NCBI RefSeq assembly: GCF_024648885.1
Contig: NZ_JANBBF010000012.1
Span: 310,001-374,000 of the forward strand
Length of the DNA stretch: 64,000 bases
Direction: 5' to 3'
Source of the DNA: Prauserella salsuginis
GTDB taxonomy: Bacteria > Actinomycetota > Actinomycetes > Mycobacteriales > Pseudonocardiaceae
The stretch's first letter is position 1. Each line of letters opens with the position of its first letter. The translations under genes were made by a program, and so were the position numbers. This document shows, one piece after another, positions 24,618 to 40,042 of this stretch. The notes below the pieces were generated by a model. The model was not told where the DNA came from. It saw nothing but the letters and a program-made list of their open reading frames with translations, and did not search any database.

Positions 24618-25199
24618 GTGACGGCGGAGGTGAGGCGCCACCCGGTGCGGGGTGTGCAGCGGGACCAGCCGTTCGTCGGAGGGGCACGGGCCGACTTCCT
24701 CGACGGCCCGCGCGCGGTGGCCACGGACCCCGCCGACGGCGCCGTTGTGGGGGAAGCGCAGCTCGCCGGCCCGGCAGCCACCCGGCGTGCGGCAACCGAG
24801 GCGGCGGCCACCGTCCCGAGCCGGGCCGACGCGTCAAGGGCCGTTCGGGCGACCTTCCCTCGAATGGCCGCCGAGTATCTCGAGGCCGACGTCGATGTCG
24901 TCGCCGACACCGCGTCGTCCGAGACGGGTGCACGGCGCACCTGCACCGGCGGTGTCGCATTGCCGAATGTGGTGCGGCAACTGCGGTACCGCGCAGATCT
25001 GCCCGCCGCTGATAACGGGCTTGAGCTGCGGCCGGCCGGGCCCGGCCGGGTGAGTGTGAACGGCGCCGGCACGCGTTCGACGCGCCGTTCGGCGGGTTCA
25101 GGCAGTCGGGGCCGGGCCGGGAGATGGGGCCTGCGGCGCCGGCGAGCTGTCGGGATCTGCGGGCCCTCGCCGTCGAGCTGTGAGCGGGTGGTCCGGTGA
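24618..25199 (+). pseudogene. N-terminal remnant of an aldehyde dehydrogenase
   Basis: An open frame of 193 codons with GGGAGG before its GTG. Residues about 12-110 follow the ALDH N-terminus: QPFVGGARADF, then TDPADGAVVGEAQLAGPA, a helix in the place of the RAVxAA segment, FPRMAAEYLEADVDVVA and DTASSETG. Similarity fades after about residue 145 into an Arg/Gly-rich stretch. The whole NAD domain, catalytic Cys and general-base Glu (about 350 residues) are missing, so it cannot be an active ALDH. The frame ends in a GTGA overlap with the FGE gene, so its translation may still carry ribosomes into FGE. An intact ALDH here would have completed the alcohol/monooxygenase route. Confidence 0.65.
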
Positions 25200-26405: not shown

Positions 26406-26529
26406 TGCGAGTACCCGAACCGGCTGTGTCCGTGAGGGCTCAGGCGACGAGCTGGTGGTTTATGTTGCCAGGCTTCGCAGTACCGGTCGACGGCCGAGGC
26501 TCTCGACCGCTGACAGAAGGGGCGCGGAT

Positions 26530-26844
26530 ATGCCGCACGACGATCCCGGCGTGCCAGGACCCGAGCCGGCCGAAACGGAATGGAATGTTTTCGACGACCT
26601 GGTCCGGAAACGGACGCGGCTCGTCGGAAAGCTTTCCGCACTGACGTGCTTGTTCTTCTTCCCACTGCCCATTCTCGGGCAGTTCACCGATGTGCTGGAC
26701 GGCGTGGTCGGTAGCGGCATCACGTGGGCGTGGATCTACGCGTTCGTGCAGTTCCCCGTCGCACTCTTCGCCGCGGCCCGGTACTCGGTGCGTGCCAGGG
26801 AACTCGACCGGGCGTCGGAGCAGGCCTGGAAGGAGCGGTCATGA
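26530..26844 (+). CDS. DUF485 membrane protein, symporter partner
   Basis: Protein of 104 residues with two hydrophobic segments (about 38-56 and 68-86) separated by a short loop, the DUF485 layout found next to ActP-type symporters such as the yjcH-actP pair. FDDLVRKRTRLVGKLSALTCLFFF is the first segment, WIYAFVQFPVALFAAARY the second. The ATG at 26530 is used; an in-frame start at 26455 has no support. Its TGA overlaps the symporter ATG (ATGA), so the two are translated together. Confidence 0.82.
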   Translation: MPHDDPGVPGPEPAETEWNVFDDLVRKRTRLVGKLSALTCLFFFPLPILGQFTDVLDGVVGSGITWAWIYAFVQFPVALFAAARYSVRARELDRASEQAWKERS

Positions 26845-28391
26845 ACATCTATTCCGCGATCGTGTTCAGCGTCCTGGTCGGGCTCACGCTGGTCATCACC
26901 TACGTCGCGGCGCGGCGGGGCAAGTCGGCCGCCGACCATTTCGTCGCCGACGGTCAGCTCACCGGCAAGCAGAACGGCCTGGCCATCGCCGGCGACTACG
27001 TGTCCGCGGCGTCGTTCCTCGGCGTGACCGGAGCCATCGCCCTGTCCGGCTTCAGCGGGTTCTACCTCGCGGTGTTCGTGCCGGTGGCGTACGTGCTCGC
27101 GCTGTTGCTGGTGGCCGAACCGCTCCGCAACCTGGGGCGGTTCACCCTCGCGGATGTGCTGGCCACCCGGTTCGAGGGCCGCAGCGTGCGCGCCGTGATG
27201 GCGGGCAGCACGCTGATCATCAGCACCCTCTACCTCGTGGCGCAGTTCGTCGGCGCGGCTCTGCTCGTGCGGCTGCTGTTCGGGGTCGACTACACGGTGG
27301 CCGTACTGGTGATCGGCGGCCTGACGACGGTCTACACCATGCTCGGTGGGATGTTGGCCACGAGCTGGATCCAGATCGTCAAAACCACACTGATGCTGGC
27401 CTGCGCGGTCACCCTGTTCGTGCTCGTGCTCGTCCGCTACGGCGGCAATCCGTTGGGCGTGTTCCAGGACGCGTTCGAGACGTTCGGGGCGGAGGCCGTC
27501 GCACCGGGCCGGGAGTCCCCGCTGGCCGGTTTCGACCAGCTGTCCCAGGTGTTCGGTCTCGTGCTCGGAGTGCTGGGCCTGCCGCACGTCATGATCCGTT
27601 TCTTCACCGTCCCCGACGCGCGCGCGGCACGGTCGTCGGCGATCACCGCGATCTGGGTGTTCACCGCGTTCTATCTGATGATCCCGGTGATCGGCTACGG
27701 CGCCTCCCTGATCGTGGGGCGGGACGCGATCACGGCACAGAATCCCGCGGGCAACCTCGCGGTCGCGCAGCTGGCCGAGACCGTCGGGGGAGGGGCGCTG
27801 CTCGCGCTCGTGTCCGCGGTGGCCTTCGTGACCATCCTCGCGGTGCTGTCCGGACTCGTCATCGCGGCGTCCGGTGCCATCGCCCACGACCTGTACGCCC
27901 AGGTGATCAAACGTGGCTCGGTGACTCCGCGGGCACAGTTGGTGTCCGCACGGATCGCGACGCTGGCGACCTGTGCGGTCGGCGTTCTGCTGGCGCTGGC
28001 CGCCGTGGATCAGAACGTCGCCTTCCTCGCCTCGCTCGCGTTCGCCGTCGCCGCGAGCGCCAACCTGCCCGCCCTGCTGCTCACGATCTACTGGCGCCGG
28101 ATGACAGCACGGGCCGTCCTGTGGGGCATGGCGGTGGGACTCGTCAGCTCGATGGGGATCATCCTGCTCAGTCCCGCCGTACTCGGCTCGTCCGCGGTCC
28201 TGGGCTTCAGCAACCCCGCACTGGTGACGGTGCCGCTGAGCCTGCTCGTGTCGATCGCCGTGGCGGTGGCGGCGCCGTCCCGCGGTGTGGCTGCCGAACG
28301 CGATCGTGCGGTGTTCCGCATGCTCCGGACGAAAGCGGTCACCGGGCGCGGCAGCGTCGAGGACGAAGGCGACCCCGTGGGCACGCGATGA
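26841..28391 (+). CDS. sodium:solute symporter, acetate-permease-like
   Basis: Protein of 516 residues of the solute:sodium symporter family with about 13 membrane segments. Characteristic are ADHFVADGQLTGKQNGLAIAGDYVSAASFLG in the first two helices and LGVLGLPHVMIRFFTVPDARAARSS near the middle, closest to the ActP branch that takes up short carboxylates. It lies in an operon with DUF485, a SnoaL-like protein and a FixJ-type response regulator, next to the indole-3-acetate-type catabolic genes. Uptake of a carboxylate such as indole-3-acetate is therefore plausible but is inferred only from position and from the shared promoter element. Confidence 0.87.
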   Translation: MNIYSAIVFSVLVGLTLVITYVAARRGKSAADHFVADGQLTGKQNGLAIAGDYVSAASFLGVTGAIALSGFSGFYLAVFVPVAYVLALLLVAEPLRNLGRFTLADVLATRFEGRSVRAVMAGSTLIISTLYLVAQFVGAALLVRLLFGVDYTVAVLVIGGLTTVYTMLGGMLATSWIQIVKTTLMLACAVTLFVLVLVRYGGNPLGVFQDAFETFGAEAVAPGRESPLAGFDQLSQVFGLVLGVLGLPHVMIRFFTVPDARAARSSAITAIWVFTAFYLMIPVIGYGASLIVGRDAITAQNPAGNLAVAQLAETVGGGALLALVSAVAFVTILAVLSGLVIAASGAIAHDLYAQVIKRGSVTPRAQLVSARIATLATCAVGVLLALAAVDQNVAFLASLAFAVAASANLPALLLTIYWRRMTARAVLWGMAVGLVSSMGIILLSPAVLGSSAVLGFSNPALVTVPLSLLVSIAVAVAAPSRGVAAERDRAVFRMLRTKAVTGRGSVEDEGDPVGTR

Positions 28392-28435
28392 CCGGACCGG
28401 CCGTACAGCCCAGCGATGAAGGAGAGATACGACCG

Positions 28436-28993
28436 ATGAGTGACGACAGGACGATCGACGCGCTCGTCTCACGGATCGAGGCGCTGGAGGCCGAGGCCGA
28501 CATCCGCCGACTGCAGGCGCGCTACATGTTCCTGTGCGACACCCCGAATCCCGAGTTCGGAGTCCGGGACGATCAGCACCGCATCGACCTCATCATGGAG
28601 CTCTACACCGACGACGCGGTGTGGGAGGGCGTCGGCGAGTATTACGACAACCAGTTCGGCAAGGCAGAAGGCGCGGCCGCGATCCGTGCACACTTCGAGC
28701 GGTTCTGGGCAGCAGAGCGCACCCCGGCGCTCGTGCTCAACGCCCACTACCTGACGTCGGAACAGATCCGGGTCGACCGCGACACCGCGACCGGCCAGTG
28801 GATCCACATGCAGCCGTGGCTGTTCTCCGACGGGACGGGCCTGCTGCGGTCGAGCCGCCTGAACAACTCCTTCCGGAAGGAAGGCGGATCGTGGAGGATC
28901 AGCAGGACCCGCACCGAGAACGTGTTCGTCGCGCCGCTGGGCGAGGACTGGGCGAGTGATTACCCTGCGGCCTCGGTGCTGATGAAGCCGTAG
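28436..28993 (+). CDS. SnoaL-like protein
   Basis: Protein of 185 residues with an NTF2-like fold: coiled start DALVSRIEALEAEADIRRLQARYMFLCD, then IDLIMELYTDDAVWEGVG, AIRAHFERFWAA and the sheet strands HYLTSEQIRVD and WRISRTRTENVFVAP. ATG at 28436 has AAGGAGAG 9 bases before it; an in-frame ATG at 28388, overlapping the symporter stop, is an alternative. Some iac clusters contain a small protein of unknown role (IacI); this protein or the 92-residue one at 31.2 kb could be its counterpart, but I cannot tell which. Confidence 0.72.
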   Translation: MSDDRTIDALVSRIEALEAEADIRRLQARYMFLCDTPNPEFGVRDDQHRIDLIMELYTDDAVWEGVGEYYDNQFGKAEGAAAIRAHFERFWAAERTPALVLNAHYLTSEQIRVDRDTATGQWIHMQPWLFSDGTGLLRSSRLNNSFRKEGGSWRISRTRTENVFVAPLGEDWASDYPAASVLMKP

Positions 28994-29039
28994 GAGGCGC
29001 CGCAGCCGGAGCCGCCACGACCCCCGGAGGGACAACCCG

Positions 29040-29672
29040 ATGACATCGACCGAATCGTCCGGCCCGGACCCGGTCGTGCACATCGTGGACGACGACGAGG
29101 ATCTGCGGCAGTCACTGGTCTTCCTGTTCGAGAGCGTGGGGATCCAGGCGCTGAGCTATCCGGACGCGACGTCGTTCCTCGACGAGTTCGACGCCGACGA
29201 GCCCGCGGTCGTCATCGTCGACATCCGCATGCCGGAGATCAGCGGATTCCAACTGCAGGAGCGGCTGCTTGCCGCCGACTACCCGGCACCGGTGATCTTC
29301 TGTTCGGCGCACGGCGACATTCCCATGTCGGTGCGAGCGCTCAAACAGGGAGCGGTCGACTTCCTGGAGAAGCCCTACCAGACACAGCGGATGCTCGAGG
29401 TCGTCCAGAAGCACCTGCACGAGGCCAAGGAGCGGTTCGCCGAGCACGCGGGACGCCGGGATATCACGCAGCGGATCGACACTCTCACCCAACGTGAACG
29501 GGAAGTGCTCCGGCTGGTCATCGAGGGCCTGTCCAGTCAGCTCATCGCCAAGCAGCTGGGGATGAGCGTGAAGACGGTCGACGTCCACCGTGCCCGCATC
29601 AAGTCCAAGACCGAGTCGGAGACGCTCGGCGCGCTGGTGCGGGACATCCTGCTGCACCGGGTATCGGTCTGA
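29040..29672 (+). CDS. FixJ/NarL-type response regulator
   Basis: Protein of 210 residues. Receiver domain at about 12-125 with the acidic pocket VDDDED, phosphoacceptor Asp61 in VDIRMP and the conserved lysine in LEKPY; LuxR-type HTH at about 145-205 with LTQREREVLRLVIEGLSS and KTVDVHRARIKSK. The short GDIPMSVRALKQGAVDFLEKP segment is the FixJ-branch pattern. Last gene of the DUF485-symporter-SnoaL operon, with GGAGGG before its ATG. The PAS histidine kinase at 32.1-33.6 kb is the obvious partner, although on the other strand with three catabolic genes in between. Confidence 0.88.
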   Translation: MTSTESSGPDPVVHIVDDDEDLRQSLVFLFESVGIQALSYPDATSFLDEFDADEPAVVIVDIRMPEISGFQLQERLLAADYPAPVIFCSAHGDIPMSVRALKQGAVDFLEKPYQTQRMLEVVQKHLHEAKERFAEHAGRRDITQRIDTLTQREREVLRLVIEGLSSQLIAKQLGMSVKTVDVHRARIKSKTESETLGALVRDILLHRVSV

Positions 29673-29696
29673 ACGTTCCGGCGCGGCTGGGCGTCC

Positions 29697-29751
29697 GAAG
29701 AGCTGCGTTCGGAGAGCTGCGTTCGAAGGGCGGTCCGGAGAGCTGCTGTTC
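29697..29751. repeat. short tandem repeat downstream of the response regulator
   Basis: GAAGAGCTGCGTTC (29697-29710) is followed directly by GGAGAGCTGCGTTC (29711-29724), and GGAGAGCTGCTGTTC recurs at 29737-29751. It lies in the 229-base non-coding gap between the convergent response regulator and amidase genes. Confidence 0.7.
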
Positions 29752-29783
29752 AACGCTGGCGGTGCCGTCGTGATCGGACGGCG

Positions 29784-29816
29784 ACGGCGATGCGACGGCG
29801 GCGGTCGCATCGCCGT
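29784..29816. terminator. bidirectional hairpin between response regulator and amidase genes
   Basis: Arms ACGGCGATGCGAC (29784-29796) and GTCGCATCGCCGT (29804-29816) pair perfectly over 13 bases with a 7-base loop. The position between the convergent genes ending at 29672 and 29902 fits a shared terminator. Confidence 0.65.
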
Positions 29817-29901
29817 GTCTTCCTCACCGGTGAGGCAGGACCGTGCCACGGTGCCGGTGCGACCGAGGCCCGGTGACGGCGACCGAGCCTCGGTGCCGGC
29901 G

Positions 29902-31170
29902 TCACACCTGGCCGCTGACGGCGCGTTCGGCCCAGCAGCCTGCGGCCAGCAGGGACTGTTCGTCCCGCGCCCGTCCGACGAGCTGAACGCCGAGCGGCAA
30001 CCCGGCGGCGTCGGCGGCGCCCGGCACGGTGACCACGGGCAGGCCGAGCGCCTGCCACGGCCTGCTCAGCACCGGGTCGCCCGTGGCCGACAGGCCCATC
30101 GGAGCCGGGCCGGGCGCGGCGGGACCCACGATGGCGTCGTAGGACTCCGACAGGCGGGTCAGCGCGGCGCCGATCTCGGCGAGCCGGTCCCGAGCAGCGT
30201 CGTACTCGGTGTCCGGCATCGCGTCCCCGGACCGCAACAGCGTCGCGAGCTGCTCGCTTATGCAGGACGCCACGGCCAGTTCCGCAGCACGTTCCCGGGC
30301 GGCCTCGTAGGCCATCACGACCTTCTGGGCCGCGACCGCCTCCGCGACGAGATCCTCCTCCGGAAACGCGTCGACGACCGCCCCGGCCTCGGCCAACCGG
30401 CGGGCCGTGCCGTCGATCGCCTCGCGCATCCCGTCCTCGACGACACCGAGCGGTTTCGCGGTCCACAGCAGCAGTCGCGGTGGACGGGGTGCCGTCGAGC
30501 CGGCATCCACCTCGCCGGTGAACGCCGACCAGGCCAGCGCGAGATCGGTGACTCCTGCGGCGTACACGCCGTGGCTGTCGAGGCTCGGGCTCAACCCGGC
30601 GGTGCCGTCCATGGCGATCCGGCCATGGGTCATGACCAGTGACGCCACGCCGCAGAAGGACGCGGGCCGGGTCACCGACCCTGCGGTCTGGGTGCCCAGC
30701 GCCAGGGGGACGTGTCCCGAGGCCACGGCTGCGGCCGAGCCGCTCGACGAACCGCCGGGAGTGCGGCCGGGATCCCGCGGGTTCCGGGTGGGACCGGGCG
30801 AGAAGTAGGCGAACTCCGTGGTGACCGTCTTGCCGACCGGAATCGCGCCCGCCCGTCGCCACGACGTGACGATCGCGGCGTCCCTGTTGGCCGGTGCGGC
30901 GTCCTCCCGCAGCGATGTACCGCATTTCGTCGGGAATCCAGCCACGTCGATGATGTCCTTCACGCCGAGCGGAACGCCGCCCAGCGGCCCGGTGTCGCGG
31001 GGCTCGGATTCCGGAGCGTGCGCCACCCAGGCACGCACCTCGGGTTCGGTGTCGGAGACGGCCGCACGCGAGCGGGCGAGCGCGTCGGCCGGGGTGGTCC
31101 GCCCGTCGCGGAGGTCGCGGTGCAGCTCGCGCAGCGACCACGGCTCGCGGGGCGTCGCCGGGCCCGTCAC
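29902..31170 (-). CDS. iacH: amidase-signature enzyme, IacH-like
   Basis: Protein of 422 residues of the amidase-signature family with the Ser-cisSer-Lys triad: Lys in GVKDIIDV near residue 75, the cis-Ser in PGGSSSGSAAAV and the nucleophile in TAGSVTRPASFCG about 25 residues later. Length and composition fit the amidase (IacH) of indole-3-acetate clusters, where its exact substrate is uncertain; it may open an oxindole or amide intermediate. The GTG at 31170 is chosen because it overlaps the stop of the upstream small gene as GTGA. The symbol rests on cluster content, not on a search; a general amidase is the alternative. Confidence 0.75.
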   Translation of the reverse strand: MTGPATPREPWSLRELHRDLRDGRTTPADALARSRAAVSDTEPEVRAWVAHAPESEPRDTGPLGGVPLGVKDIIDVAGFPTKCGTSLREDAAPANRDAAIVTSWRRAGAIPVGKTVTTEFAYFSPGPTRNPRDPGRTPGGSSSGSAAAVASGHVPLALGTQTAGSVTRPASFCGVASLVMTHGRIAMDGTAGLSPSLDSHGVYAAGVTDLALAWSAFTGEVDAGSTAPRPPRLLLWTAKPLGVVEDGMREAIDGTARRLAEAGAVVDAFPEEDLVAEAVAAQKVVMAYEAARERAAELAVASCISEQLATLLRSGDAMPDTEYDAARDRLAEIGAALTRLSESYDAIVGPAAPGPAPMGLSATGDPVLSRPWQALGLPVVTVPGAADAAGLPLGVQLVGRARDEQSLLAAGCWAERAVSGQV

Positions 31171-31445
31171 GGCTGGCCCCATGCCGCGTCGGCGACCCAG
31201 AAGTCCATGCCGCTCGCGCTCACCCCGTGCCGCCATTCCGAGGTACGCCGCAGCAGCGGCTCCACCGCTGCGGTCACGGCGTCGGCAGCCTCGGGCCCGT
31301 CCTCGGGAACCTGCCAGTGCACCCAGCTCCGCTCCCTGCCGTCGCGGTCGTGCTCGAAGAGGTCGACGTGCCGCCAGCCGTATCCGTGCGTGTCGTTGTA
31401 GCAGGTAAGCGTCATCCGAATACCTTCGTCGTCCCGCTCGGTCAC
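31167..31445 (-). CDS. small conserved-looking protein of unknown function
   Basis: Protein of 92 residues with no recognised domain. It has a Trp- and His-rich middle (YGWRHVDLFEHD, SWVHWQVPEDGP), a helix AADAVTAAVEPLLRR and the ending GMDFWVADAAWGQP, suggesting a compact alpha/beta fold. GTG at 31445 is preferred over the ATG at 31472 because AAGGAGGG stands 5 bases before it. It is translationally coupled to the amidase downstream and lies 37 bases after the flavin reductase, so it belongs to the iac-like set; it may be the counterpart of the uncharacterised IacI, but this is a guess from position. Confidence 0.65.
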   Translation of the reverse strand: MTERDDEGIRMTLTCYNDTHGYGWRHVDLFEHDRDGRERSWVHWQVPEDGPEAADAVTAAVEPLLRRTSEWRHGVSASGMDFWVADAAWGQP

Positions 31446-31482
31446 CAGACCCTCCTTCGCATGAATGCTCACGCGCCAGTGC

Positions 31483-31995
31483 CTACGCGCTCAGCGACGG
31501 CGTGGCAAGACTGTGGAACCGGCGTTGGAAATAGACCAGCGCTCCGGTGTCTGCGTGTGTGTGGACGGCGTCGACCTCGACGAACAGCACCGAATGCGAG
31601 CCGAGGGTGCGGTCGGCCACGATCCGGCCGACGACCGCGACCAGCGCGTCCTGCAGCACGGGAACGCCGTGGGTGGTGAAGTCCCAGGACCCTTCGGCGA
31701 ACCGTTCGGCGGTCGGAACCTTCGTCGCACCGGCGAAGTGGAGCGCGAGTTCGTCCTGGTCCGCGCCGAGCACGTTCACGGCGACCCTTCCGTTGGCCGT
31801 GAAGATGTCGTGCGAGCGGCTCGAGCGGTTCACACACACCAGCATCGTGGGAGGTGTATCGGTCACCGAGCAGGTCGCGCTGACCGTCATCCCGGCGGGG
31901 CCGAGGGCGCCGTCCGTGGTGATCACGTTCACCGCCGCGGGCAGTTTCGCCATTGCGGAGCGGAACTCACGCTGGGCATTCGACAGCTCTGACAC
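31483..31995 (-). CDS. iacG: flavin reductase, IacG-like partner of the monooxygenase
   Basis: Protein of 170 residues of the FMN-binding split-barrel flavin reductase family (HsaB, HpaC type), which supplies reduced flavin to a two-component monooxygenase. Marks are FRSAMAKLPAAVNVITT at the start, GPAGMTVSATCSVTDTPPTMLVCV, the GRVAVNVLG segment and GSHSVLFVEVDAVH near the end. GTG at 31995 follows AGGAGGAA at 4 bases; the longer frame to 32532 is shadow. First gene of the flavin reductase-small protein-amidase unit. Its likely client is the acyl-CoA-dehydrogenase-like hydroxylase at 33.7 kb. Confidence 0.85.
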   Translation of the reverse strand: MSELSNAQREFRSAMAKLPAAVNVITTDGALGPAGMTVSATCSVTDTPPTMLVCVNRSSRSHDIFTANGRVAVNVLGADQDELALHFAGATKVPTAERFAEGSWDFTTHGVPVLQDALVAVVGRIVADRTLGSHSVLFVEVDAVHTHADTGALVYFQRRFHSLATPSLSA

Positions 31996-32114
31996 GATTC
32001 CTCCTGCGACGAGCGCGTGGGCCGGGGCGCCGTTGTCTGGTTCCTGCTGCGACGTTACGACTCCGGTCACGGTGTCGATATCGAGACTTACACCGGGCCC
32101 GTTGAGGGTTTCCC

Positions 32115-33620
32115 CTACTCCTCGTCGTCGGCGAGCGGCAGCGCGAAGCCGAATCGCGATCCGCCCTCGTCCCGCGGCTCGGCCCAGATCCGGCCGTGCT
32201 GCCGGGTGATGACGCGATAGCTGAGTGCCAGGCCGATGCCACTGCCGTGCGCCTTGGACGTGAACGACTCCTCGAACGGATCGTGCTGCAGCCCGCGGCC
32301 CCGGTCGTCGACCGTGAGGACGCCGAAGCCGTCGTCGAGACGGGTCGTGATCGTGAGCTCTCGCCGTTGCTGCTGGCACGAGGTCATCTCGTCGATCGCG
32401 TTGACGCAGAAGTTGAGGAGCACCTGGCCCGTGAGGACGCGTTCGCAGCGCACCAGCACCGGTTCGGGATGAGGGTGCACCGTGACTGTCACGCCGGCGG
32501 GCACCGCGCGAAGCCGGACGAAGTGGAGACACTGGTCGAGCACGTCGCCCAGGTCCACGACCTGGTCCACCTGCTCCAGGTGGCCGACGAACTCACGCAC
32601 CGCGTCGACGATCGTGCTGGCGCGTTCGATCTGCCCGACCGCTCTGTCGACACCGAACGACAGCTGGGATGCGGCCTCGGGCGGGACCGTTCCCGCCTCG
32701 GCCAGCGACCGACTGCGAGCTCGGACACCGGCGAGAAAGTTTCCTGCGGCCGCGAGCGGCTGGCCCAGCTCGTGGGCGATCGCCATCGCCATGTCGCCCA
32801 TCGCGTTGTACCGCGCCAGGTAGTTCTCGCGGTGGAGCTCGCGCTCACGTCGCACCTCGCCCTGAACCCGGTCGGAGACGTCGTGCAGGATCATCAGCAG
32901 TGCGTGGTCGCCGGCGTCCTGAACGGATTCGAGGCTTCCCTCGAGCCACACCGACGTGCCGTCGTCGTGCGCGACCTCGAGCTGGATGGCGGTCGACGGG
33001 TTCGCCCGCGCCAGGGCCTCGTCCCACGTGACCGTACGTCCCTCCAGCCACAGCCTGCCGTAGTCGGTGAGCGGGCCCAGCGGCTCGTTCGGGGTCGCGC
33101 CGATGCGTGCCACGGCGGTGTCCGTGGCGAAACGCAGTGTTCCGGCCGAGTCCAGCATGAGCGCGATCGTCGACGTGTGCCGGGCGAGCGCGTCGATGTA
33201 GGACGTCGTCAGCCGCAGTTCCCGTTCGATCTGCTGTTCCCGCTCGATGTCGCGGAACTGCACCATCACGGCGGTGCCCCGGTCCAGTTCCACCCGGACG
33301 GCGACCGCGTCGGTGGGGATCACCCGGCCACTCTTGGAGCGGTAGTGCCACTCGATCCTGCTGGCGCCCTTGTCGACGGCCTCCTGCAGCCACGCCCTGC
33401 CGATCACGCGGTCGTACTGCTGGGCCGAGCTGCTCATGTGGTTGGCCTTGAGTGGGCGAAGCTCGGTGACGCTCCAGCCGAGCATCTCGCACGCGGCCGG
33501 ATTCGCCCACAGGATGTTCTTGGTGTCGGCGTCGTGGATCAGGACGCAGAGTTTCGTGGCTCGCATCATCGCGACGAAGTCGTTCGCCGTGATCTCGGGT
33601 GCCTGGGGATCGACGTGCAT
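32115..33620 (-). CDS. cytosolic PAS-domain sensor histidine kinase
   Basis: Protein of 501 residues without membrane segments. A first PAS domain lies at about 12-130 (LCVLIHDADTKNILWANPAACEMLGW), a second at about 140-255, then the H-box MAIAHELGQPLAAAGNFL with His near residue 275, the N-box LLNFCVNAIDE, and G-boxes VDDRGRGLQ and SGIGLALSYRVI. This HELGQPL form is the FixL/TodS-type class that pairs with FixJ-like regulators, as found 3 kb away. Lack of a sensor outside the membrane implies that it reads an internal signal, perhaps an aromatic ligand bound by PAS. Divergent from the iacA-like gene. Confidence 0.88.
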   Translation of the reverse strand: MHVDPQAPEITANDFVAMMRATKLCVLIHDADTKNILWANPAACEMLGWSVTELRPLKANHMSSSAQQYDRVIGRAWLQEAVDKGASRIEWHYRSKSGRVIPTDAVAVRVELDRGTAVMVQFRDIEREQQIERELRLTTSYIDALARHTSTIALMLDSAGTLRFATDTAVARIGATPNEPLGPLTDYGRLWLEGRTVTWDEALARANPSTAIQLEVAHDDGTSVWLEGSLESVQDAGDHALLMILHDVSDRVQGEVRRERELHRENYLARYNAMGDMAMAIAHELGQPLAAAGNFLAGVRARSRSLAEAGTVPPEAASQLSFGVDRAVGQIERASTIVDAVREFVGHLEQVDQVVDLGDVLDQCLHFVRLRAVPAGVTVTVHPHPEPVLVRCERVLTGQVLLNFCVNAIDEMTSCQQQRRELTITTRLDDGFGVLTVDDRGRGLQHDPFEESFTSKAHGSGIGLALSYRVITRQHGRIWAEPRDEGGSRFGFALPLADDEE

Positions 33621-33661
33621 TCGGTCAGGGTAGAACGCCGGCCGCGGGGAGCGGGGCTGAA

Positions 33662-33724
33662 GAAATCCCCTAGGCCGGCATCGGCAATACCCAATACCGC
33701 GTCCCGTTGCGGCTTCGTAGCGTC
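33662..33724 (+). promoter_or_regulatory. probable promoter of the iacA-F-like operon
   Basis: GAAATCCC at 33662-33669 and TTGCGGCTTCGTAGCGTC at 33707-33724, the second holding a TAGCGT -10-like hexamer 27 bases before the iacA-like ATG. Both elements recur before the DUF485/symporter/response-regulator operon at 26340-26405. They are candidate sites for the response regulator encoded by that operon. Confidence 0.5.
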
Positions 33725-33749
33725 GAAGTCGGTCGAACGAGGAGGAGCA

Positions 33750-34919
33750 ATGGTGCAGACGCGGGTACGCGAATCCGTGGAAACGCGGGGACGCGGCGAC
33801 GACGCCGTCACCTTCGACGACGTGCTGGCGGAACTCGAGGACCGGAGAACCGAGTTCGACGAGCAGCGATACGTCCCGAAGGATTTCGTCGAGCGCCTCA
33901 AACAAGTCGGGATCTATCGCGCGTCCACGCCCGCGAAATTCGGCGGGCGGCCGTTGCCGCCCGCCGAATTCCTGGACCGGATCGAACGGATCTCCGCCGT
34001 GGACGGATCGACCGGCTGGGTCGCCAGCTTCGGTTCCGCGCTGATCTATCTCGCGGCGTTGCCGGTCGAAACCCAGGCCGAGCTCTACCGCAACGGCCCC
34101 GACGTGACGTTCGCCGCCGGCCTGTTCCCGATTCAGCCTGCCGAGGCCACCGACAGCGGATTCCGCGTGGACGGGCGGTGGAAGTTCGCCAGCGGCTGCA
34201 TGGGCGCCGACATCCTCGGGGTCGGTATCCCCGGGGACTCGTCGACTGGGGGCAAGCCGCGCACGGCACTGCTCAGCCCCGATCAGGTCGAGATCGTGCA
34301 GGAATGGGACGTCGTCGGGATGCGGGGTACCGGATCGTTCGATCTGGTCGTCCGCGACACCGAGGTGCCGCGCGAGTGGACCTTCATCCGCGGCGGCGAG
34401 GCCACTGTGGACGAACCGCTCTACCGGTATCCGGTCATCGCATACGCCGCGCAGGTGCTGGCCGTCGTCGGCTCGGGCGTCGCACGGGCCGCGCTCGATC
34501 ACGCCGAACAGGTCGGCGGCGGCTATGCCGGGGTGACCGGAGCCCCGAAACTCGCCGACCGGCCGCACTACCGGACCCGGGTCGCCTCGGCCGAGGCGGA
34601 ACTCCGCTCGGCGAGGGCGTGGTTCTACGACCTCAGCCACGAGGTGTGGGAAACGGTCGTGGCAGGTGACCCGGCCACCGACGAGCAGAACGCCCACCTG
34701 CGGCTGGCCTCGGCGCACCTGGCGAAGACCGCCTCTGATGTCGTCGGTGACCTCGTGGAGATCTCCGGAACGGCACCGATCAACCGGAGCCACCCGCTGC
34801 AGCGACTGCTCGGTGACGCGCTCGTGCCGAAGCAGCACGCGTTCCTCGGCCCCGCCATGTACGACTCCGCCGGGGCGGTCCTGATGGGGCTGGACCCCAC
34901 GACTCCCGGTTTTCAGTGA
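33750..34919 (+). CDS. iacA: acyl-CoA-dehydrogenase-like flavin monooxygenase, IacA-like
   Basis: Protein of 389 residues with the acyl-CoA dehydrogenase fold of group D flavin hydroxylases (HsaA, HpaB-like, IacA), which need a separate flavin reductase. Visible: YVPKDFVERLKQVGIYRASTPAKFGG near residue 40, ISAVDGSTGWVASFGSA near 80, WKFASGCMGADILG near 145, VVGMRGTGSFDLVV near 185 and the C-terminal GTAPINRSHPLQRLLGDALV with the His/Arg pair typical of the hydroxylases. In Proteobacteria IacA hydroxylates the indole ring of indole-3-acetate. ATG at 33750 follows GGAGGAG. First gene of a six-gene operon whose order matches iacA-B-C-D-E-F. Confidence 0.82.
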   Translation: MVQTRVRESVETRGRGDDAVTFDDVLAELEDRRTEFDEQRYVPKDFVERLKQVGIYRASTPAKFGGRPLPPAEFLDRIERISAVDGSTGWVASFGSALIYLAALPVETQAELYRNGPDVTFAAGLFPIQPAEATDSGFRVDGRWKFASGCMGADILGVGIPGDSSTGGKPRTALLSPDQVEIVQEWDVVGMRGTGSFDLVVRDTEVPREWTFIRGGEATVDEPLYRYPVIAYAAQVLAVVGSGVARAALDHAEQVGGGYAGVTGAPKLADRPHYRTRVASAEAELRSARAWFYDLSHEVWETVVAGDPATDEQNAHLRLASAHLAKTASDVVGDLVEISGTAPINRSHPLQRLLGDALVPKQHAFLGPAMYDSAGAVLMGLDPTTPGFQ

Positions 34920-34977
34920 CAGGTGCCGCGACGTCCGTCAGCGACACCGTGAACCCCGTGACGGCAAGGAGGCCGGC

Positions 34978-35358
34978 GTGACCGCACAACCGCTTCGCGT
35001 GCTCTTCTGCATCGGAATCAACCAGAACTTCTTCGATCTTCCCTCCGGCGGCATCGCGCCCGGCGACGTCTGGAAAGCGTTCGTGTCCATGATGGACGGT
35101 ATCAAGGAGATGCCGGGCGTCGACTTCATCGGTGATATGGACGACGACTCGCACCTGGTCGGTCCGTCGGATGGCTGGCCGTGGACCTGCTACATCCTGG
35201 CCGACGTCGACTCCCAGGACACGGTCAAGGCCGCCTGCAACCTGTTCCGCACGACCCCGGTCGGCGACGGCGACGCGAAACTCTGGCGGTTCGCCAAGGT
35301 CGAGGCGCGGATGGGCCGTGCGCTCACGGTCCGCGACGACGTCACGCTCCCCGAATGA
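34978..35358 (+). CDS. iacB: small protein of unknown function, IacB-like
   Basis: Protein of 126 residues with an alternating strand/helix pattern: LRVLFCIGINQNFFDL at the start, DVWKAFVSMMDGIKEM, VDFIGDMDDDSHL, CYILADVDSQDTVKAACNLFRTT and LWRFAKVEARMGRAL. This looks like a ferredoxin-fold (YCII or monooxygenase-like) unit. It sits exactly where iacB, a gene of the same size and no known function, sits in indole-3-acetate clusters. A GTG start has AAGGAGG 6 bases before it. The symbol rests on size and position. Confidence 0.68.
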   Translation: MTAQPLRVLFCIGINQNFFDLPSGGIAPGDVWKAFVSMMDGIKEMPGVDFIGDMDDDSHLVGPSDGWPWTCYILADVDSQDTVKAACNLFRTTPVGDGDAKLWRFAKVEARMGRALTVRDDVTLPE

Positions 35359-35376
35359 CATTACGGAGAAGCCCGG

Positions 35377-36654
35377 ATGAACCAGTACATCGATGACACA
35401 GCGCCCGCGGACCTGGTGGCAGCGGACCGCGTGGCCGGCCGGCTCTACACCGATCCCGACATCTTCGAACGCGAGATGGCGGCCATCTTCGAAACCACGT
35501 GGGTGTGGGTCGCCCACGAGAGCGAACTGGCGACGCCGGGGAGCTTCAAGTCGACCTACGTCGGCAGGCAGCCGGTGATCGTCACCCGTGACCGCAAGAA
35601 CAACCTGCACACGATGCTCAACCGGTGCCGCCACCGCGGCGCGAGCGTGTGCGAGAAGCCGCAGGGCCGTGCGAACGGGTTCACCTGCCCGTATCACGCG
35701 TGGTCGTACGGCCTCGACGGCACACTGCGCGGCATTCCGTACCCCGACGGCTACGAAGGCGTCGTCGAGAAGCGTGACCTGTCGCTGCGGAAGCTGCGCA
35801 CCGAGAGCTACGGCGGCATGGTCTTCGCGACCTTCGCGGAGGACGTCGAGCCGCTCGCCGACTTCCTCGGCGACGCGAAGCTGTGGATCGACCGGTTCAT
35901 GAAGCAGGGTGGCGGTTACCCGATCAAGGTTCTCGGCAAGCACCAGTTCCGATTCAAGGGGAACTGGAAGATCCAGCTCGAGAACACGACGGACGGTTAC
36001 CACTTCCCGATCGTGCACCGGTCCTGGATGGCGTCGGTCGATGCCGAAACGGCGGACATGATGTCGTTCATGACCGACCCCGATGCGATCACCCACGACC
36101 TTGGTAACGGCCACAGTGTCATGCAGATGGTGCCGGAACACGCCGACCTCGACGTCGACGACGGCAGCGAGCCGTTGCAGGGCAGGTTCGACGACCTCGC
36201 GGCGGAACTGTCGAAATCCTTCTCCGATACGGAGGTACGCCGACTGCTGCGTGCGATGCACGGCACCGGATTCAACCTCAACCTGTTCCCGAACGTGGCG
36301 ATGTCGTCCGCGTTCTTTCGGGTGCTGCGGCCCGTCGCGGTCGACGAGACGGTGATCGAGCACATCGCGATCGGCCCCGACGGACCGTCCGAACTGGACC
36401 CGCTGAACCGTGAGCGACTGCGGATCCACGAACACTTCCAGGGGCCGTTCGGGTTCGGCACGCCGGACGACGCCGAAGGCTGGGACCGGGTTCAGCGTGG
36501 CGCGCGGGCCGAACCGGCGATGCCGATCCTGGTCAACCGCGGCAGCGCGCGGGAGAAGACGAGTGCAGAGGGATGGCCGACGTCGCACGTGACCGACGAG
36601 ACCGGCATGCGCGCGGCGTACAACCAGTGGAAGCGGATGATGCGCGATGACTGA
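35377..36654 (+). CDS. iacC: Rieske non-heme iron oxygenase, alpha subunit, IacC-like
   Basis: Protein of 425 residues, the catalytic subunit of a ring-hydroxylating oxygenase. The Rieske [2Fe-2S] ligands are Cys84, His86, Cys104 and His107 (C-x-H-x17-C-x2-H). The mononuclear iron site is in NTTDGYHFPIVH with Asp206 bridging the subunits and His209 and His214 as ligands. Length fits the 420-440 residues of the anthranilate/salicylate-like group to which IacC belongs. It overlaps the beta-subunit gene by 8 bases. In iac clusters this enzyme acts late, on the way to catechol. ATG has GGAGAAG before it. Confidence 0.88.
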   Translation: MNQYIDDTAPADLVAADRVAGRLYTDPDIFEREMAAIFETTWVWVAHESELATPGSFKSTYVGRQPVIVTRDRKNNLHTMLNRCRHRGASVCEKPQGRANGFTCPYHAWSYGLDGTLRGIPYPDGYEGVVEKRDLSLRKLRTESYGGMVFATFAEDVEPLADFLGDAKLWIDRFMKQGGGYPIKVLGKHQFRFKGNWKIQLENTTDGYHFPIVHRSWMASVDAETADMMSFMTDPDAITHDLGNGHSVMQMVPEHADLDVDDGSEPLQGRFDDLAAELSKSFSDTEVRRLLRAMHGTGFNLNLFPNVAMSSAFFRVLRPVAVDETVIEHIAIGPDGPSELDPLNRERLRIHEHFQGPFGFGTPDDAEGWDRVQRGARAEPAMPILVNRGSAREKTSAEGWPTSHVTDETGMRAAYNQWKRMMRDD

Positions 36655-37177
36655 AGCCACCACAGCGCCGGCCGTGGCCGAGCCGGTGAGCACGACCGAC
36701 GCGAGGGTCGCCAGGGCGATCGACCTCGTGTGGCGCGAGGCCGAGCTGCTCGACCGCGCCGATTACGTCGGGTGGAACGAGCTGTTCACCGGCGACGGGT
36801 TCTACGTGGTGCCGATCGATCCGGACACCGACGATTTCGAGAACACGCTCAACATGGTCTACGACGACGCCCGTATGCGGGAGCTGCGGGTGGGGCGGAT
36901 GACCGAGGGCTACGCCATCGCCGCGGTCGACGCCGCCCGCACGGTACGCACGGTGTCGCGATTCGTGCCGGAGTCGGTATCGGACACCGAGGTGGTGCTG
37001 CGCTCGGCGCAGGTGCTGATCGCCTACAAGCGACGGCGGCACGACATCTGGGCCGCCGACCTGACGCACCGGGTCCGCCTGGCCGCCGACGGCCCGGCCG
37101 GTGACCGGATCGCGCTGAAGATCGTCCGGCTGGTCGACAGCGAGGACGCGGTGCCCGCGGCGGGGTTCCTGCTGTGA
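36647..37177 (+). CDS. iacD: ring-hydroxylating oxygenase, beta subunit, IacD-like
   Basis: Protein of 176 residues of the ring-hydroxylating oxygenase beta family (NTF2-like fold), structural partner of the alpha subunit in an alpha3beta3 particle. Marks are the helix VWREAELLDRADYVGWNELFTGDGFYVVPI, then MVYDDARMRELRVGRM and RTVSRFVPESVSDTEVVLRSAQVLIAYKRR. The ATG lies within the 3' end of the alpha gene and its own TGA overlaps the next gene's GTG, so subunits and the next dehydrogenase are tightly coupled. Confidence 0.87.
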   Translation: MTEATTAPAVAEPVSTTDARVARAIDLVWREAELLDRADYVGWNELFTGDGFYVVPIDPDTDDFENTLNMVYDDARMRELRVGRMTEGYAIAAVDAARTVRTVSRFVPESVSDTEVVLRSAQVLIAYKRRRHDIWAADLTHRVRLAADGPAGDRIALKIVRLVDSEDAVPAAGFLL

Positions 37178-37920
37178 GCGCGGCACAGACCGCGGTCGTG
37201 ACCGGCGGTGGAGCGGGACTCGGCGAGGCGATCGCGCGTCGGCTGCACGAACACGGATACCGCGTCGCGATCGCCGACGTGGACGGCTACGCCGCCGATG
37301 CGGTGGCGGGACAGCTCGACCGCTCCGGGCACACGGCGAAGGGGTACGGCGTGGACGTACGGGGCCGGGCCGCGTTGGAGGACCTGCTCTCTCGGGTGCT
37401 CGCGGACTTCGGCGGCGCGCACGTGCTCGTGAACAATGCGGCGCGCACCCGGGCGACGCCGTTGCTCGAGATCACCGCCGAGGAGCTCGACGACGTCCTG
37501 GCGGTCAACGTCGCGGGAACGTTCCAGGCGTGCCAGATCTTCGGGGCGCACTTCGCCGAACAGGGATACGGCCGCATCGTGAACATGGCATCGCTGGCCG
37601 GTCAGAACGGCGGGACGGCCACCGGGGGTCATTACGCCTCGTCCAAGGGCGCCATCCTGTCGGCGACCAAGGTGTTCGCCCGCGAACTCGCTCCCCGCGG
37701 CGTGACCGTCAACGCGGTGTCGCCGGGACCGCAGGACAGCCCGATGGTGCGGTCGATCGTCGGTGAGGAGAACCTCGAGTCGTTCGCGTCGGCGATCCCG
37801 GTGGGCCGGCTCGGTGATCCGGCGTTCATCGGCGACACGGTCGCCCTGCTCGCGTCTCCGGGGGCCGCCTCGGTGACCGGAGCGTGTTGGGACGTCAACG
37901 GTGGTCTGTATCTGCGCTGA
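37174..37920 (+). CDS. iacE: short-chain dehydrogenase, IacE-like
   Basis: Protein of 248 residues, classical SDR: VTGGGAGLGEAIA cofactor motif at the N-terminus, VNNAARTRATP in place of NNAG, catalytic Ser in NMASLAG, Tyr-x3-Lys in YASSKGA and a C-terminal WDVNGGLYLR. ADVDGYAADAV after the second strand suggests NAD+. In the iac pathway IacE acts on hydroxylated indole-acetate to form dioxindole-3-acetate. GTG start within the beta-subunit stop. Confidence 0.83.
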   Translation: MSAAQTAVVTGGGAGLGEAIARRLHEHGYRVAIADVDGYAADAVAGQLDRSGHTAKGYGVDVRGRAALEDLLSRVLADFGGAHVLVNNAARTRATPLLEITAEELDDVLAVNVAGTFQACQIFGAHFAEQGYGRIVNMASLAGQNGGTATGGHYASSKGAILSATKVFARELAPRGVTVNAVSPGPQDSPMVRSIVGEENLESFASAIPVGRLGDPAFIGDTVALLASPGAASVTGACWDVNGGLYLR

Positions 37921-37948
37921 TGCCCGGAGGGCGGGAACGGAAGTGAGC

Positions 37949-38911
37949 ATGGCGATGCACAGGATCCCCGTACGAGTGGCGGACGTCGTCGACGAGACGG
38001 CCGACATCCGCAGTCTGCGGTTGACCAGGACCGACGGCGCGGAGTTCCCGGCGTACGAGGCGGGCGCGCACGTCGACGTCGTCGGCCCGACGGGGCTGAC
38101 CCGGCAGTACTCGCTGTGTGGCAGGCCGAGTGACCGATCGTCACTGCACATCGCCGTCAAGCGGGAGCCGGATTCGCGCGGTGGTTCCCAGGCGCTGCAC
38201 ACCGTCTCGGTAGGCGACTCCCTGGAGGTCGGGCAGCCGCGGAACCTGCTGACGCTCGCCCCGGACGCCGACCGGCACCTGCTCGTCGCTGGCGGCATCG
38301 GTGTCACACCACTGCTGGGCATGGCCTACGAACTGGCCGCCAGGGGAGCGGAGTTCGAACTCCACTACTTCGCGCGCTCCAGAGAGGAGGCCGCGTTCGT
38401 CGACCACCTCGAGAGTGTCACCGAGTTCCGGGGCCGGGTCCACCTGCGGTTCGGTACCCCGCGGGACAAGTTTCCCGCGGTGCTGGCGGATCTGGTGCCG
38501 GAGCTGACGCCGGGGAGTCACGTCTACACGTGCGGGCCGGAAGGGTTCATGACCGAGGTGGTGACGGCCTGCGCCCCGGTGGTGGGCGAACAGCGGGTCC
38601 ACATCGAACACTTCGTCGCCGCCGCGGACGAGGCGGGCGAGGACGATGCCTTCACCGTGGAACTGGACACGGGGGAGACGTTCGAGATCCCGGCGGGGCA
38701 GTCGATCCTCAGCGTGCTCGGCGAGAACGGCATCGAGGTGTTCAAATCCTGCGAGGAAGGGATCTGCGGATCGTGCGTGTCCGGCGTGCTGGCAGGCACC
38801 CCGGATCATCGGGACCGGTGCCTGTCGGCGGCCGACCGATCGGCGGGCGACCAGATGGCACTGTGCGTCTCGCGCGCGCTCACCGACAAGCTCGTCATCG
38901 AGCTCTACTGA
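37949..38911 (+). CDS. iacF: oxygenase reductase with FMN, NAD and [2Fe-2S] domains, IacF-like
   Basis: Protein of 320 residues of the phthalate-dioxygenase-reductase type. Flavin domain with RQYSLCG (FMN-type) near residue 52 and the KREPDSRGGS loop; nicotinamide domain with LLVAGGIGVTPLLGM and VYTCGPEGFM; C-terminal plant-type [2Fe-2S] domain with CEEGICGSC and a late fourth cysteine in QMALCVSR. It would pass electrons from NADH to the Rieske oxygenase encoded upstream. The ATG at 37949 follows GGAAGTGAG; GTG at 37943 and ATG at 37955 are alternatives. Last gene of the operon. Confidence 0.85.
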   Translation: MAMHRIPVRVADVVDETADIRSLRLTRTDGAEFPAYEAGAHVDVVGPTGLTRQYSLCGRPSDRSSLHIAVKREPDSRGGSQALHTVSVGDSLEVGQPRNLLTLAPDADRHLLVAGGIGVTPLLGMAYELAARGAEFELHYFARSREEAAFVDHLESVTEFRGRVHLRFGTPRDKFPAVLADLVPELTPGSHVYTCGPEGFMTEVVTACAPVVGEQRVHIEHFVAAADEAGEDDAFTVELDTGETFEIPAGQSILSVLGENGIEVFKSCEEGICGSCVSGVLAGTPDHRDRCLSAADRSAGDQMALCVSRALTDKLVIELY

Positions 38912-38942
38912 CCGGCGTCCCGGCCTGCGGGGCGCCCGGTGG
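38911..38942. terminator. imperfect hairpin between the reductase and Lrp genes
   Basis: ACCGGCGTCCC (from 38911) can pair with GGGGCGCCCGGT (to 38940) with a bulge and mismatches, in the 40-base gap between two convergent genes. Weak but correctly placed. Confidence 0.35.
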
Positions 38943-38951
38943 TCTGTGCCG

Positions 38952-39917
38952 CTAGCGCCGCGGGGACCAGTACCGCATCAGCACCGACAGGACGGTCGAC
39001 ACCTCGAATCCGGTGATGCCGGGGTGCCTGCCGAGGTCGTCGGACAGGAACGTCGCGAGGTCGTCCTCGTGGTGGAACAGCCCGTGGTGGAGGACCGAGG
39101 ACGTCCCGGCCACGGTGGTCACGTAGCGCGCGGACTCGTGGCCTGCCAGGGCGGTGGCGACGCTGCGCATCGACGCCGGTGACGTGGCCAGGGAGACGAC
39201 GGCCTCGAGCGGGTAGCCCAGCAACGCCGGCTCGATCTCGACACGTGGTTGCACGAGCCCGCGGTCGAGCACCGATTGGGTCGTGCGATACGCCGTGGAC
39301 GCGCTCCTGCCGAGCTCGCGGGCGATCTCGGCGGCACTCGCTCTGCCGTTGCGGTGCAGTACCGCGGCGACGGCACGTTCGTCGTCGTCCATCGGCACCG
39401 GGGCGTCGGGCGGTGCGCCGTGCCGGTGCGCGGCGAGTGTCTCCTCCTGCTGCGGTGTCAGCCGGTGCAGGCGCCACCGCGACCCGGAGACGTACCGGTG
39501 CAGACCGAGCTCCGAGTGTGTCGTGAGGATGCCTGCGATCGACGGCAAAGTCGTGGCCAGCAGCTCCGCGGCGTCCGCGCGCCGGCGGGGGTGGAGGATG
39601 CAGTAGACGTCGGCGCGGCCCGTGGTCGACGCGACGAACTGTGCCTCGGGCAGGTCCGCGACGGCCGTGGCGACCTCGCGTGCGTGTCCCGGCGCCGTGG
39701 AGATCCACACGTGGTGCGGGGTGGCGCCGTCTAGCCACCAGGGGATCTGGCCGACGATGCGGAGCCCGTAGTGCTCGCGCAGTCTCGTCAACCGCCTGCT
39801 GACGGTGCCCGTCGAGATCCCGAGCGTCGTCGCAAGCACCTGCAAGCTCACCCGTGGCGCCAGCTGCAGCGCCGCGACGAGGTCGAGGTCTTCGGGGTCG
39901 AGGGTCTCCGCCAGCAT
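38952..39917 (-). CDS. Lrp/AsnC regulator with two tandem units
   Basis: Protein of 321 residues, about twice a normal Lrp protein. Unit one: HTH LQLAPRVSLQVLATTLGISTGTVSRRLTRL at about 15-45 and a sensor domain to about 150. Unit two: MDDDERAVAAVLHRNGRASAAEIARELGRSASTAYR at about 175-210 and a sensor part to the end, HHEDDLATFLSDDL resembling the ligand-binding RAM repeat. Double Lrp proteins are frequent in actinobacteria. Divergent from an amidohydrolase-symporter pair across 125 bases holding two palindromes, so it very likely controls that pair. Confidence 0.85.
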   Translation of the reverse strand: MLAETLDPEDLDLVAALQLAPRVSLQVLATTLGISTGTVSRRLTRLREHYGLRIVGQIPWWLDGATPHHVWISTAPGHAREVATAVADLPEAQFVASTTGRADVYCILHPRRRADAAELLATTLPSIAGILTTHSELGLHRYVSGSRWRLHRLTPQQEETLAAHRHGAPPDAPVPMDDDERAVAAVLHRNGRASAAEIARELGRSASTAYRTTQSVLDRGLVQPRVEIEPALLGYPLEAVVSLATSPASMRSVATALAGHESARYVTTVAGTSSVLHHGLFHHEDDLATFLSDDLGRHPGITGFEVSTVLSVLMRYWSPRR

Positions 39918-39963
39918 GTCCTGTTTCTAGCACGAGCGCTCTGTGTGAACGATCAGAGTCATG

Positions 39964-40001
39964 TATGGATCCATATTGACAGATTCACCTCATCAGGTGA
40001 A
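39964..40001 (+). promoter_or_regulatory. two palindromes and a -35-like box upstream of the amidohydrolase gene
   Basis: TATGGATCCATA (39964-39975) is a perfect palindrome. TTCACCT-N4-AGGTGAA (39984-40001) is a perfect 7-bp inverted repeat. Between them TTGACA (39976-39981) matches the -35 consensus; a convincing -10 is not seen. These are candidate sites for the divergent double Lrp regulator. Confidence 0.5.
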
Positions 40002-40042
40002 GGTATGCGGTCATATTGTTCTGTTGATCGGAGGTTAGTCCG

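Follow-up and report, generated by a model that had tools for sequence, protein, structure and literature searches.

Can Prauserella salsuginis, an actinomycete of the family Pseudonocardiaceae, degrade the auxin indole-3-acetate, and if so, with which version of the known gene sets? The question is raised by a gene cluster at positions 28436-38911 of a stretch of 64,000 nucleotides (hereafter, the window; positions 310,001 to 374,000 of contig NZ_JANBBF010000012.1, RefSeq assembly GCF_024648885.1) of its 5.64-Mb genome. Twelve genes with intact frames occupy this segment: iacI, a response regulator gene, iacH, a gene for a protein of 92 residues, iacG, a histidine kinase gene, and then iacA-B-C-D-E-F. 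We read it, with a probability of about 0.9, as a complete iac-type cluster for the aerobic conversion of indole-3-acetate, and probably also of close indole acids, to catechol; it appears to be a known kind of gene set in an actinobacterial variant.

This assignment is carried by homology to five other iac loci, compared by tblastn: those of Acinetobacter NCu2D-2 (annotated as encoding an "IacB protein"), A. baumannii X4-300, Cupriavidus P-10 (on a megaplasmid), Rhodococcus YL-1, and Streptomyces NBC_00564. Counterparts were found for all proteins from IacA to IacI. Identities to the five loci are 45-63% for IacA, 57-62% for IacB, 57-76% for IacC, 37-66% for IacD, 49-55% for IacE, and 38-52% for IacF. 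IacH is 51% identical to its counterpart in Streptomyces, 45% in Rhodococcus, and 30-34% in the three proteobacterial loci; IacI is 74% identical in Rhodococcus and 32-37% in the proteobacterial loci, with no match in the Streptomyces stretch. IacG was clearly matched in only two loci (62% in Streptomyces, 55% in Cupriavidus), the other three giving 26% or no match. Against Acinetobacter NCu2D-2 taken singly, the identities are 45, 57, 57, 37, 53, 39, 31, and 34% for IacA, B, C, D, E, F, H, and I, respectively; IacG has no match there because that locus has a reductase of another type. Two plasmid loci, of Paraburkholderia PREW-6R and Rhodococcus USK13, encode IacA at 51% identity and IacB at 59% and 55%, respectively, and the nearest named relatives of IacB belong to Prauserella halophila (96%) and P. 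alba (94%). The whole cluster recurs in P. halophila DSM 44617 and P. alba DSM 44590, at 86-97% identity. In a 2022 survey, iac-like loci were recognized by the marker genes iacA, iacB, and iacI together with adjacent iacC and iacD (PMC9613470); the three markers and the adjacent pair are all present here, as are iacE, iacF, iacG, and iacH.

A preliminary description of the segment, made from the sequence alone, had listed a monooxygenase, a 126-residue protein, Rieske alpha and beta subunits, a short-chain dehydrogenase, and a reductase, with a flavin reductase, a small unknown protein, and an amidase on the other strand. All of these are intact frames, and the alignments agree with the iac identity it had proposed; its list left unnamed three genes inside the same segment, those for the SnoaL-like IacI, the LuxR/FixJ-type regulator, and the PAS-domain kinase. 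The order of iacA-F, which it had likened to that of known clusters, is the same in Acinetobacter NCu2D-2, where iacI sits between iacB and iacC. A pattern search located motifs for the Rieske cluster and iron site, the short-chain dehydrogenase triad, the ferredoxin cysteines, and the H-box of the kinase. The coding regions of iacC and iacD and of iacD and iacE overlap, and, with the starts chosen here, the gene of the 92-residue protein overlaps the start of the amidase gene.

The same block recurs in other actinobacteria. GTDB genomes were scanned with an IacB alignment led by the window protein, and the best 80 of 459 confirmed IacB relatives were taken as loci for comparison; all 80 are actinobacterial by title, and the selection favors likeness to the window protein, a sample of 297 genomes of the family being less biased. 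Presence was called when at least half of the query was covered, so that partial genes were dropped (IacH of L021, 43%; the 92-residue protein of L093, 46%), and, with flanks ending at 10 kb or at the contig end, absence means absence from the stretch. On these terms, IacA was present in 78 loci, IacB in 80, IacC in 78, IacD in 78, IacE in 80, IacF in 69, IacG in 72, IacH in 72, IacI in 70, the kinase in 77, the regulator in 74, and the 92-residue protein in 73. Sixty of the IacG matches have at least 40% identity; the 12 under 30% are probably other flavin reductases. As the gene block is conserved across the 80 loci, a chance likeness is excluded, in line with the earlier judgment that the match was too complete for chance. 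Nearly all of these loci (from Saccharomonospora, Amycolatopsis, Saccharopolyspora, Rhodococcus, Arthrobacter, Nocardioides, and others) have the same core; they differ in having a symporter or a permease of the major facilitator superfamily (MFS), in gene order and, in some cases, in adjoining catA-C, amine oxidase or aldehyde dehydrogenase genes.

In a tree of IacC, the window protein groups with those of Prauserella and Saccharomonospora (support 100/99) inside a clade of 56 rows, mostly Pseudonocardiaceae, and the Acinetobacter and Cupriavidus/Paraburkholderia rows are separate from this clade (the tree being midpoint-rooted for drawing). IacB was found in three of seven genomes of the genus and in 54 of the 297 genomes of the family, 46 of them with strong matches (E < 1e-50), so the actinobacterial version is common in the family of the window. 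A sample of the phylum gave 4 of 396 genomes, namely the window's own and three with much weaker matches, and IacB occurs in 28 of 72,556 plasmid records, three of these being actinobacterial. The genome of P. salsuginis has a single copy.

More distant relatives of single Iac proteins occur as well. IacB-like proteins of at most 41% identity are encoded in three actinobacterial genomes (L109, L110, L111, L112, L113), with no IacA or IacC match in these 3.3-kb loci; a wider IacB family may exist outside iac. Stand-alone IacA-like proteins were seen in Nonomuraea gerenzanensis (L002 12001-13116, 66%) and on a plasmid of Streptomyces camelliae (L007 12001-13119, 60%), with no match to IacB, C, D or F within 12 kb; they were possibly recruited to other indole chemistry.

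What would the cluster do? In Proteobacteria, IacA leads to 2-hydroxy/2-oxo-indole-3-acetate and IacE to dioxindole-3-acetate, and iacC, with iacD, iacF, and perhaps iacI, is required to reach catechol through intermediates given there as unknown (PMC9613470, PMC7225977); the chemistry from dioxindole-3-acetate to catechol was described as unsolved in 2020 (PMC7225977). In P. salsuginis, indole-3-acetate would enter through a pair formed by a DUF485 protein and a sodium:solute symporter. IacG would feed reduced flavin to IacA, which would hydroxylate the indole at C2, and IacE would yield dioxindole-3-acetate. The Rieske oxygenase IacCD with its reductase IacF, aided by IacB and IacI, would take this compound to catechol, to be cleaved by an unlinked catA, with a cycloisomerase gene beside it, into the beta-ketoadipate route. 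A presumably cytoplasmic PAS kinase and the LuxR-type regulator would turn the cluster on.

A catechol dioxygenase gene, which the preliminary description had suggested seeking in the rest of the genome, was indeed found: CatA, a catechol 1,2-dioxygenase, scores 469 bits against an NCBIfam cut-off of 404, and two muconolactone-isomerase genes pass the Pfam cut-off. Cat genes are close to iac in proteobacterial clusters (PMC7225977), and catA lies within the fetched stretch (up to 10 kb on each side) of 15 of the 80 other actinobacterial loci, including that of Saccharomonospora halophila, whose genus stands closest to Prauserella in the IacC tree. The window itself contains a protocatechuate branch at 7812-11652, about 17 kb from iac, in which pcaH, pcaG, and pcaC exceed their cut-offs; pcaB falls just short (332 vs. 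356), and a PcaR-family-like regulator is likewise under its cut-off.

Several points weigh against the proposed function. First, IacD, IacF, IacH, and IacI are only 30-39% identical to those of the two Acinetobacter loci, and the loci compared exclude the characterized strains P. putida 1290, PsJN, C. glathei DSM50014, and E. soli LF7. Second, the cat genes of this genome are unlinked to iac, and the cycloisomerase-like neighbor of catA scores 197 bits, below the cut-off of 335. Third, the symporter occurs in the stretch of only 16 of the 80 loci. One kind of MFS permease, that of L025, occurs in 25 and another MFS permease in 11; three loci have both the symporter and the first MFS type, and 31 have none of the three. 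That the permease type varies next to the same core suggests a role in substrate uptake.

It is also conceivable, though quite unlikely, that the main substrate of the same enzymes is a different indole acid, or a precursor or conjugate of auxin (indole-3-butyrate, -propionate, -acetamide), with indole-3-acetate as one of several compounds accepted. IacA and IacE of Caballeronia also take indole-propionate and indole-butyrate (PMC7225977), an amidase gene lies inside the cluster, and a nearby copper amine oxidase, aldehyde dehydrogenase or amino-acid permease is encoded in 11, 18, and 12 of the 80 other loci, respectively. Ten of the 11 loci with copper amine oxidase (L034, L035, L038, L039, L041, L064, L066, L067, L068, L070, and L090) also have the amino-acid permease, and five have the aldehyde dehydrogenase, gene sets that suggest feeding from tryptamine-like compounds to auxin in those organisms. 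However, a copper amine oxidase as an upstream feeder had to be rejected for P. salsuginis, whose genome gave no match, no such feeder genes were found in the window, and the cluster has the genes typical of loci for indole-3-acetate. An iad-like locus, which would lead from indole-3-acetate via isatin to anthranilate, is very improbable. The iad loci of Variovorax and Achromobacter share iacCDEF-type genes, and that of Variovorax is described as being without iacA and its route as ending at anthranilate (PMC9613470); here, however, the iac markers iacA, iacB, and iacI are present, and the iad markers iorB and iotA are absent among the products identified at 26455-42666. Hardly credible, and already excluded in large part, is a cluster for some other aromatic compound (a steroid ring, anthranilate, benzoate) resembling iac by chance: in the PDB, IacA matches Rv3094c best, followed by putative or 3-HSA hydroxylases, and the best NCBIfam match of IacC is anthranilate dioxygenase, but the scores are far under the curated cut-offs (157 vs. 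450 bits for IacA with the steroid HsaA model NF045629, 211 vs. 672 bits for IacC with the anthranilate 1,2-dioxygenase model TIGR03228), iac loci match gene for gene over IacA-F (37-76%), IacB is rare among plasmid records, and homology of IacB and IacI is present, so that the refutation proposed in the preliminary description (best matches to another pathway, with no IacB or IacH homology) fails.

The putative catechol-forming iac cluster preferred here can be compared with two known types of regulation. Among the MarR-type loci (Acinetobacter and, according to PMC9613470, Pseudomonas putida 1290), it resembles that of Acinetobacter NCu2D-2 in having counterparts of IacA-F, H, and I and the same iacA-F order. 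Unlike that locus, it has a kinase and a LuxR-type regulator with no MarR found, an extra 92-residue protein, and an IacG of the HpaC/RutF type, and iacI, iacH, and iacG are set apart from iacABCDEF, with iacH and iacG on the other strand. None of the products identified at 26455-42666 is a MarR protein, although the AsnC-type regulator encoded at 38952 weakly matches helix-turn-helix domains of the MarR fold. The MarR protein of the Acinetobacter locus L008, as a tblastn query at E 1e-10, found none in the window or in the 80 loci, more distant MarR genes not being sought in the latter; other MarR or TetR genes can occur nearby, as they do in the stretches of Streptomyces NBC_00564 and Rhodococcus YL-1.

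Two-component systems are reported for the iac loci of Pseudomonas and of Paraburkholderia phytofirmans PsJN, the latter with a LuxR regulator and IacS, the genera named in the cited part being all Proteobacteria (PMC11630574). Compared by this description, the P. salsuginis cluster has the same pair, a histidine kinase and a LuxR-type regulator, within the locus. Cupriavidus P-10 is alike in its kinase (37% identical), which is divergent from iacA, its regulator (47%), and its IacG; the regulator of Rhodococcus YL-1 is 49% identical. The stretches of Cupriavidus P-10 and Paraburkholderia PREW-6R differ in having no 92-residue protein and another order of iacI and iacH. The kinase gene adjoins and is divergent from iacA in 71 of the 77 loci that have it, and in a hydropathy scan of the window kinase none of the hydrophobic stretches was of membrane-spanning length.

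In actinobacterial iac loci, the 92-residue protein is a regular component. Forty-one of the 297 family genomes encode it. All 41 belong to the 54 that have IacB and, more narrowly, to the 46 whose IacB match is strong (hypergeometric value 2.8e-39, a figure that ignores the relatedness of genomes). In the phylum sample it is limited to the window's genome (1/396), and the three plasmid records that encode it (3/72,556) are the sole actinobacterial ones among the IacB plasmids; in two of these, its gene and iacB share a replicon at distances of about 13 and 36 kb. Four proteobacterial iac loci, searched by profile, gave none. Twenty-nine positions are invariant in 58 members, including C15, D18, W24, H26, D28, W41, H43, W44, D49, E62, R67, W71, and W83. 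One family copy has an internal TAG (G059:C3:71955-72215), and the other 40 listed copies are open. The window protein matches no Pfam family; a match of one of the 58 members to a phage family (E 0.023) was taken as chance. Its AlphaFold model, of moderate confidence (predicted local distance difference test score, pLDDT, 81.9; predicted template modeling score 0.69), gave no significant PDB match (best E 0.11), and homology to IacB was rejected by profile comparison.

We propose that this protein acts in the catabolic core, at steps after dioxindole-3-acetate, rather than in regulation or with the amidase alone. Its gene adjoins the amidase gene on the same strand in 56 of the 71 loci having both; coupling to the amidase alone is not the whole story, the protein being kept in three loci with no amidase match in the stretch (L037, L056, and L057). 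In the 20-kb stretch of L037, from Saccharopolyspora rosea, iacA-E, iacI, and the gene in question are the only ones of the twelve cluster genes. Other observations speak against the proposal. The S. rosea genome elsewhere encodes a kinase 45% identical to that of the window (G692:C1:4189963-4191405, about 1.8 Mb from L037), as well as ferredoxin reductases of up to 44% and amidases of up to 42% identity; L037 is therefore weaker support for a core role, as functions may be supplied from outside the locus. This kinase could be a partner moved away from the locus or a related sensor that serves a different pathway. Moreover, the 92-residue protein is absent from 5 of the 46 family genomes with strong IacB matches and, at half coverage, from 7 of the 80 loci, and so is not strictly required; of these seven loci, L031 and L075 are truncated where their contigs end, and L093 matches in part.

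IacB may bear on the same step. Its model (pLDDT 88.5) has a predicted ferredoxin-like fold, and the top PDB rows of a Foldseek search were MhuD, 4-methylmuconolactone methylisomerase, YgiN, and the cofactor-independent oxygenase SnoaB (E 2.6e-3 to 4.9e-3, probability 0.99-1.00). The first 12 rows have probabilities of 0.97-1.00 and template modeling scores of about 0.4-0.5; these are borderline matches of a monomer prediction, none reaching E 0.001. As other, unrelated ferredoxin-like proteins are also listed (HPPK at rank 10, Lrp, PII), the fold is a safer assignment than the dimeric alpha/beta-barrel superfamily, and IacB is best described as predicted, on borderline evidence, to have a ferredoxin-like fold, possibly of the dimeric alpha/beta-barrel kind. 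By sequence, the single match among solved structures (E 0.3) was taken as chance. In the indole pathway, IifA is described as a putative cofactor-independent oxygenase of two domains, the C-terminal one having the SnoaL fold, and IacB with IacI in E. coli gave no conversion of dioxindole-3-acetate (PMC7225977). That IacB and IacI may form a two-protein analog of IifA needing a further partner is a live idea, and the failed assay counts against its simple form. Tentatively, and with rather low probability, the 92-residue protein could be a tenth catabolic component, working on dioxindole-3-acetate as an enzyme or subunit together with IacB and IacI, which would form a split IifA; the small protein might supply what the failed assay lacked or do what in Proteobacteria is the job of another protein.

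Auxin-degrading loci of iac- or iad-like type have been reported from five phyla (221 genera), Actinobacteria among them, the actinobacterial type not being specified in the part of the 2022 survey consulted (PMC9613470); actinobacterial loci as such are thus already known. Predicted iac clusters of environmental strains come from a group that, in the portion cited, seems to include Rhodococcus (PMC12462448), and in three plant-associated Rhodococcus strains no iac homologs were reported in the section cited, though one grew on indole-3-acetate (PMC7002392). Among the matches listed by our literature search there was no bench-tested actinobacterial iac locus and no such small protein, which is weak evidence of novelty, the protein being nameless and most subscription journals lying outside the coverage. 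What goes beyond the preliminary finding is the recurrent kinase-regulator pair, the 92-residue companion, and the predicted fold of IacB. Bacteria that destroy auxin alter root growth, and the strains named in the cited parts as characterized for iac are Proteobacteria. The conserved companion and the IacB fold both bear on the unsolved step from dioxindole-3-acetate to catechol and offer two concrete things to follow.

Table. Genes and other features of the iac-type cluster and the adjoining transporter genes (positions in the window)
Feature	Position	Strand	Basis
DUF485 small membrane protein, partner of the symporter gene 26841-28391	26455-26844	+	Pfam PF04341; near iac in 14/80 loci
Sodium:solute symporter, MctC/ActP-like; candidate indole-3-acetate uptake permease, by position	26841-28391	+	Pfam SSF; NCBIfam MctC 460 bits, below cut-off 670
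IacI, SnoaL-like	28436-28993	+	Pfam PF13577
LuxR/FixJ-type response regulator	29040-29672	+	Pfam Response_reg and GerE
IacH, amidase	29902-31182	-	Pfam PF01425
Protein of 92 residues, no family; actinobacterial iac companion	31167-31445	-	no Pfam match; present in 73/80 loci
IacG, flavin reductase (HpaC/RutF type), 170 residues	31483-31995	-	Pfam PF01613
PAS-domain histidine kinase	32115-33620	-	Pfam PAS and HATPase_c; HELGQP box
Divergent intergenic region between kinase gene and iacA, 129 bp; likely control region	33621-33749	.	read directly
IacA, flavin monooxygenase of acyl-CoA-dehydrogenase fold	33750-34919	+	Pfam Acyl-CoA_dh_2; AGGAGG before ATG
IacB, 126 residues, predicted ferredoxin-like (dimeric alpha/beta-barrel) protein	34978-35358	+	likeness to IacB of five loci; invariant residues; structure model
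IacC, Rieske oxygenase alpha subunit	35377-36654	+	Pfam Rieske and Ring_hydroxyl_A; CxH...CxxH and metal-ligand motifs
IacD, Rieske oxygenase beta subunit	36647-37177	+	Pfam PF00866
IacE, short-chain dehydrogenase	37174-37920	+	Pfam PF13561; GxxxGxG and S...YxxxK
IacF, ferredoxin-type reductase of the Rieske oxygenase	37949-38911	+	Pfam Fer2 and NAD_binding_1; CX4CX2C

Next to the cluster, at 38952-42666, lies a gene for an AsnC-type double regulator, with genes for an amidohydrolase and a second sodium:solute symporter divergent from it. Their membership in the cluster was weighed and rejected: the regulator occurs near iac in 3 of the 80 loci, two of the copies being about 25-26% identical, and the amidohydrolase does so in one. 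Since P. alba (L020) likewise has these genes beside iac, whereas the P. halophila stretch (L019) does not, they probably form a separate operon. Sulfatase and FGE-like sulfatase-modifying factor genes (16230-18551 and 25196-26161), about 7 kb apart, are a possible activation pair. Finally, the genes at 42761-48963, encoding an FGGY kinase, an aldolase/short-chain dehydrogenase fusion, and a rhamnose mutarotase domain, probably serve L-rhamnose catabolism.

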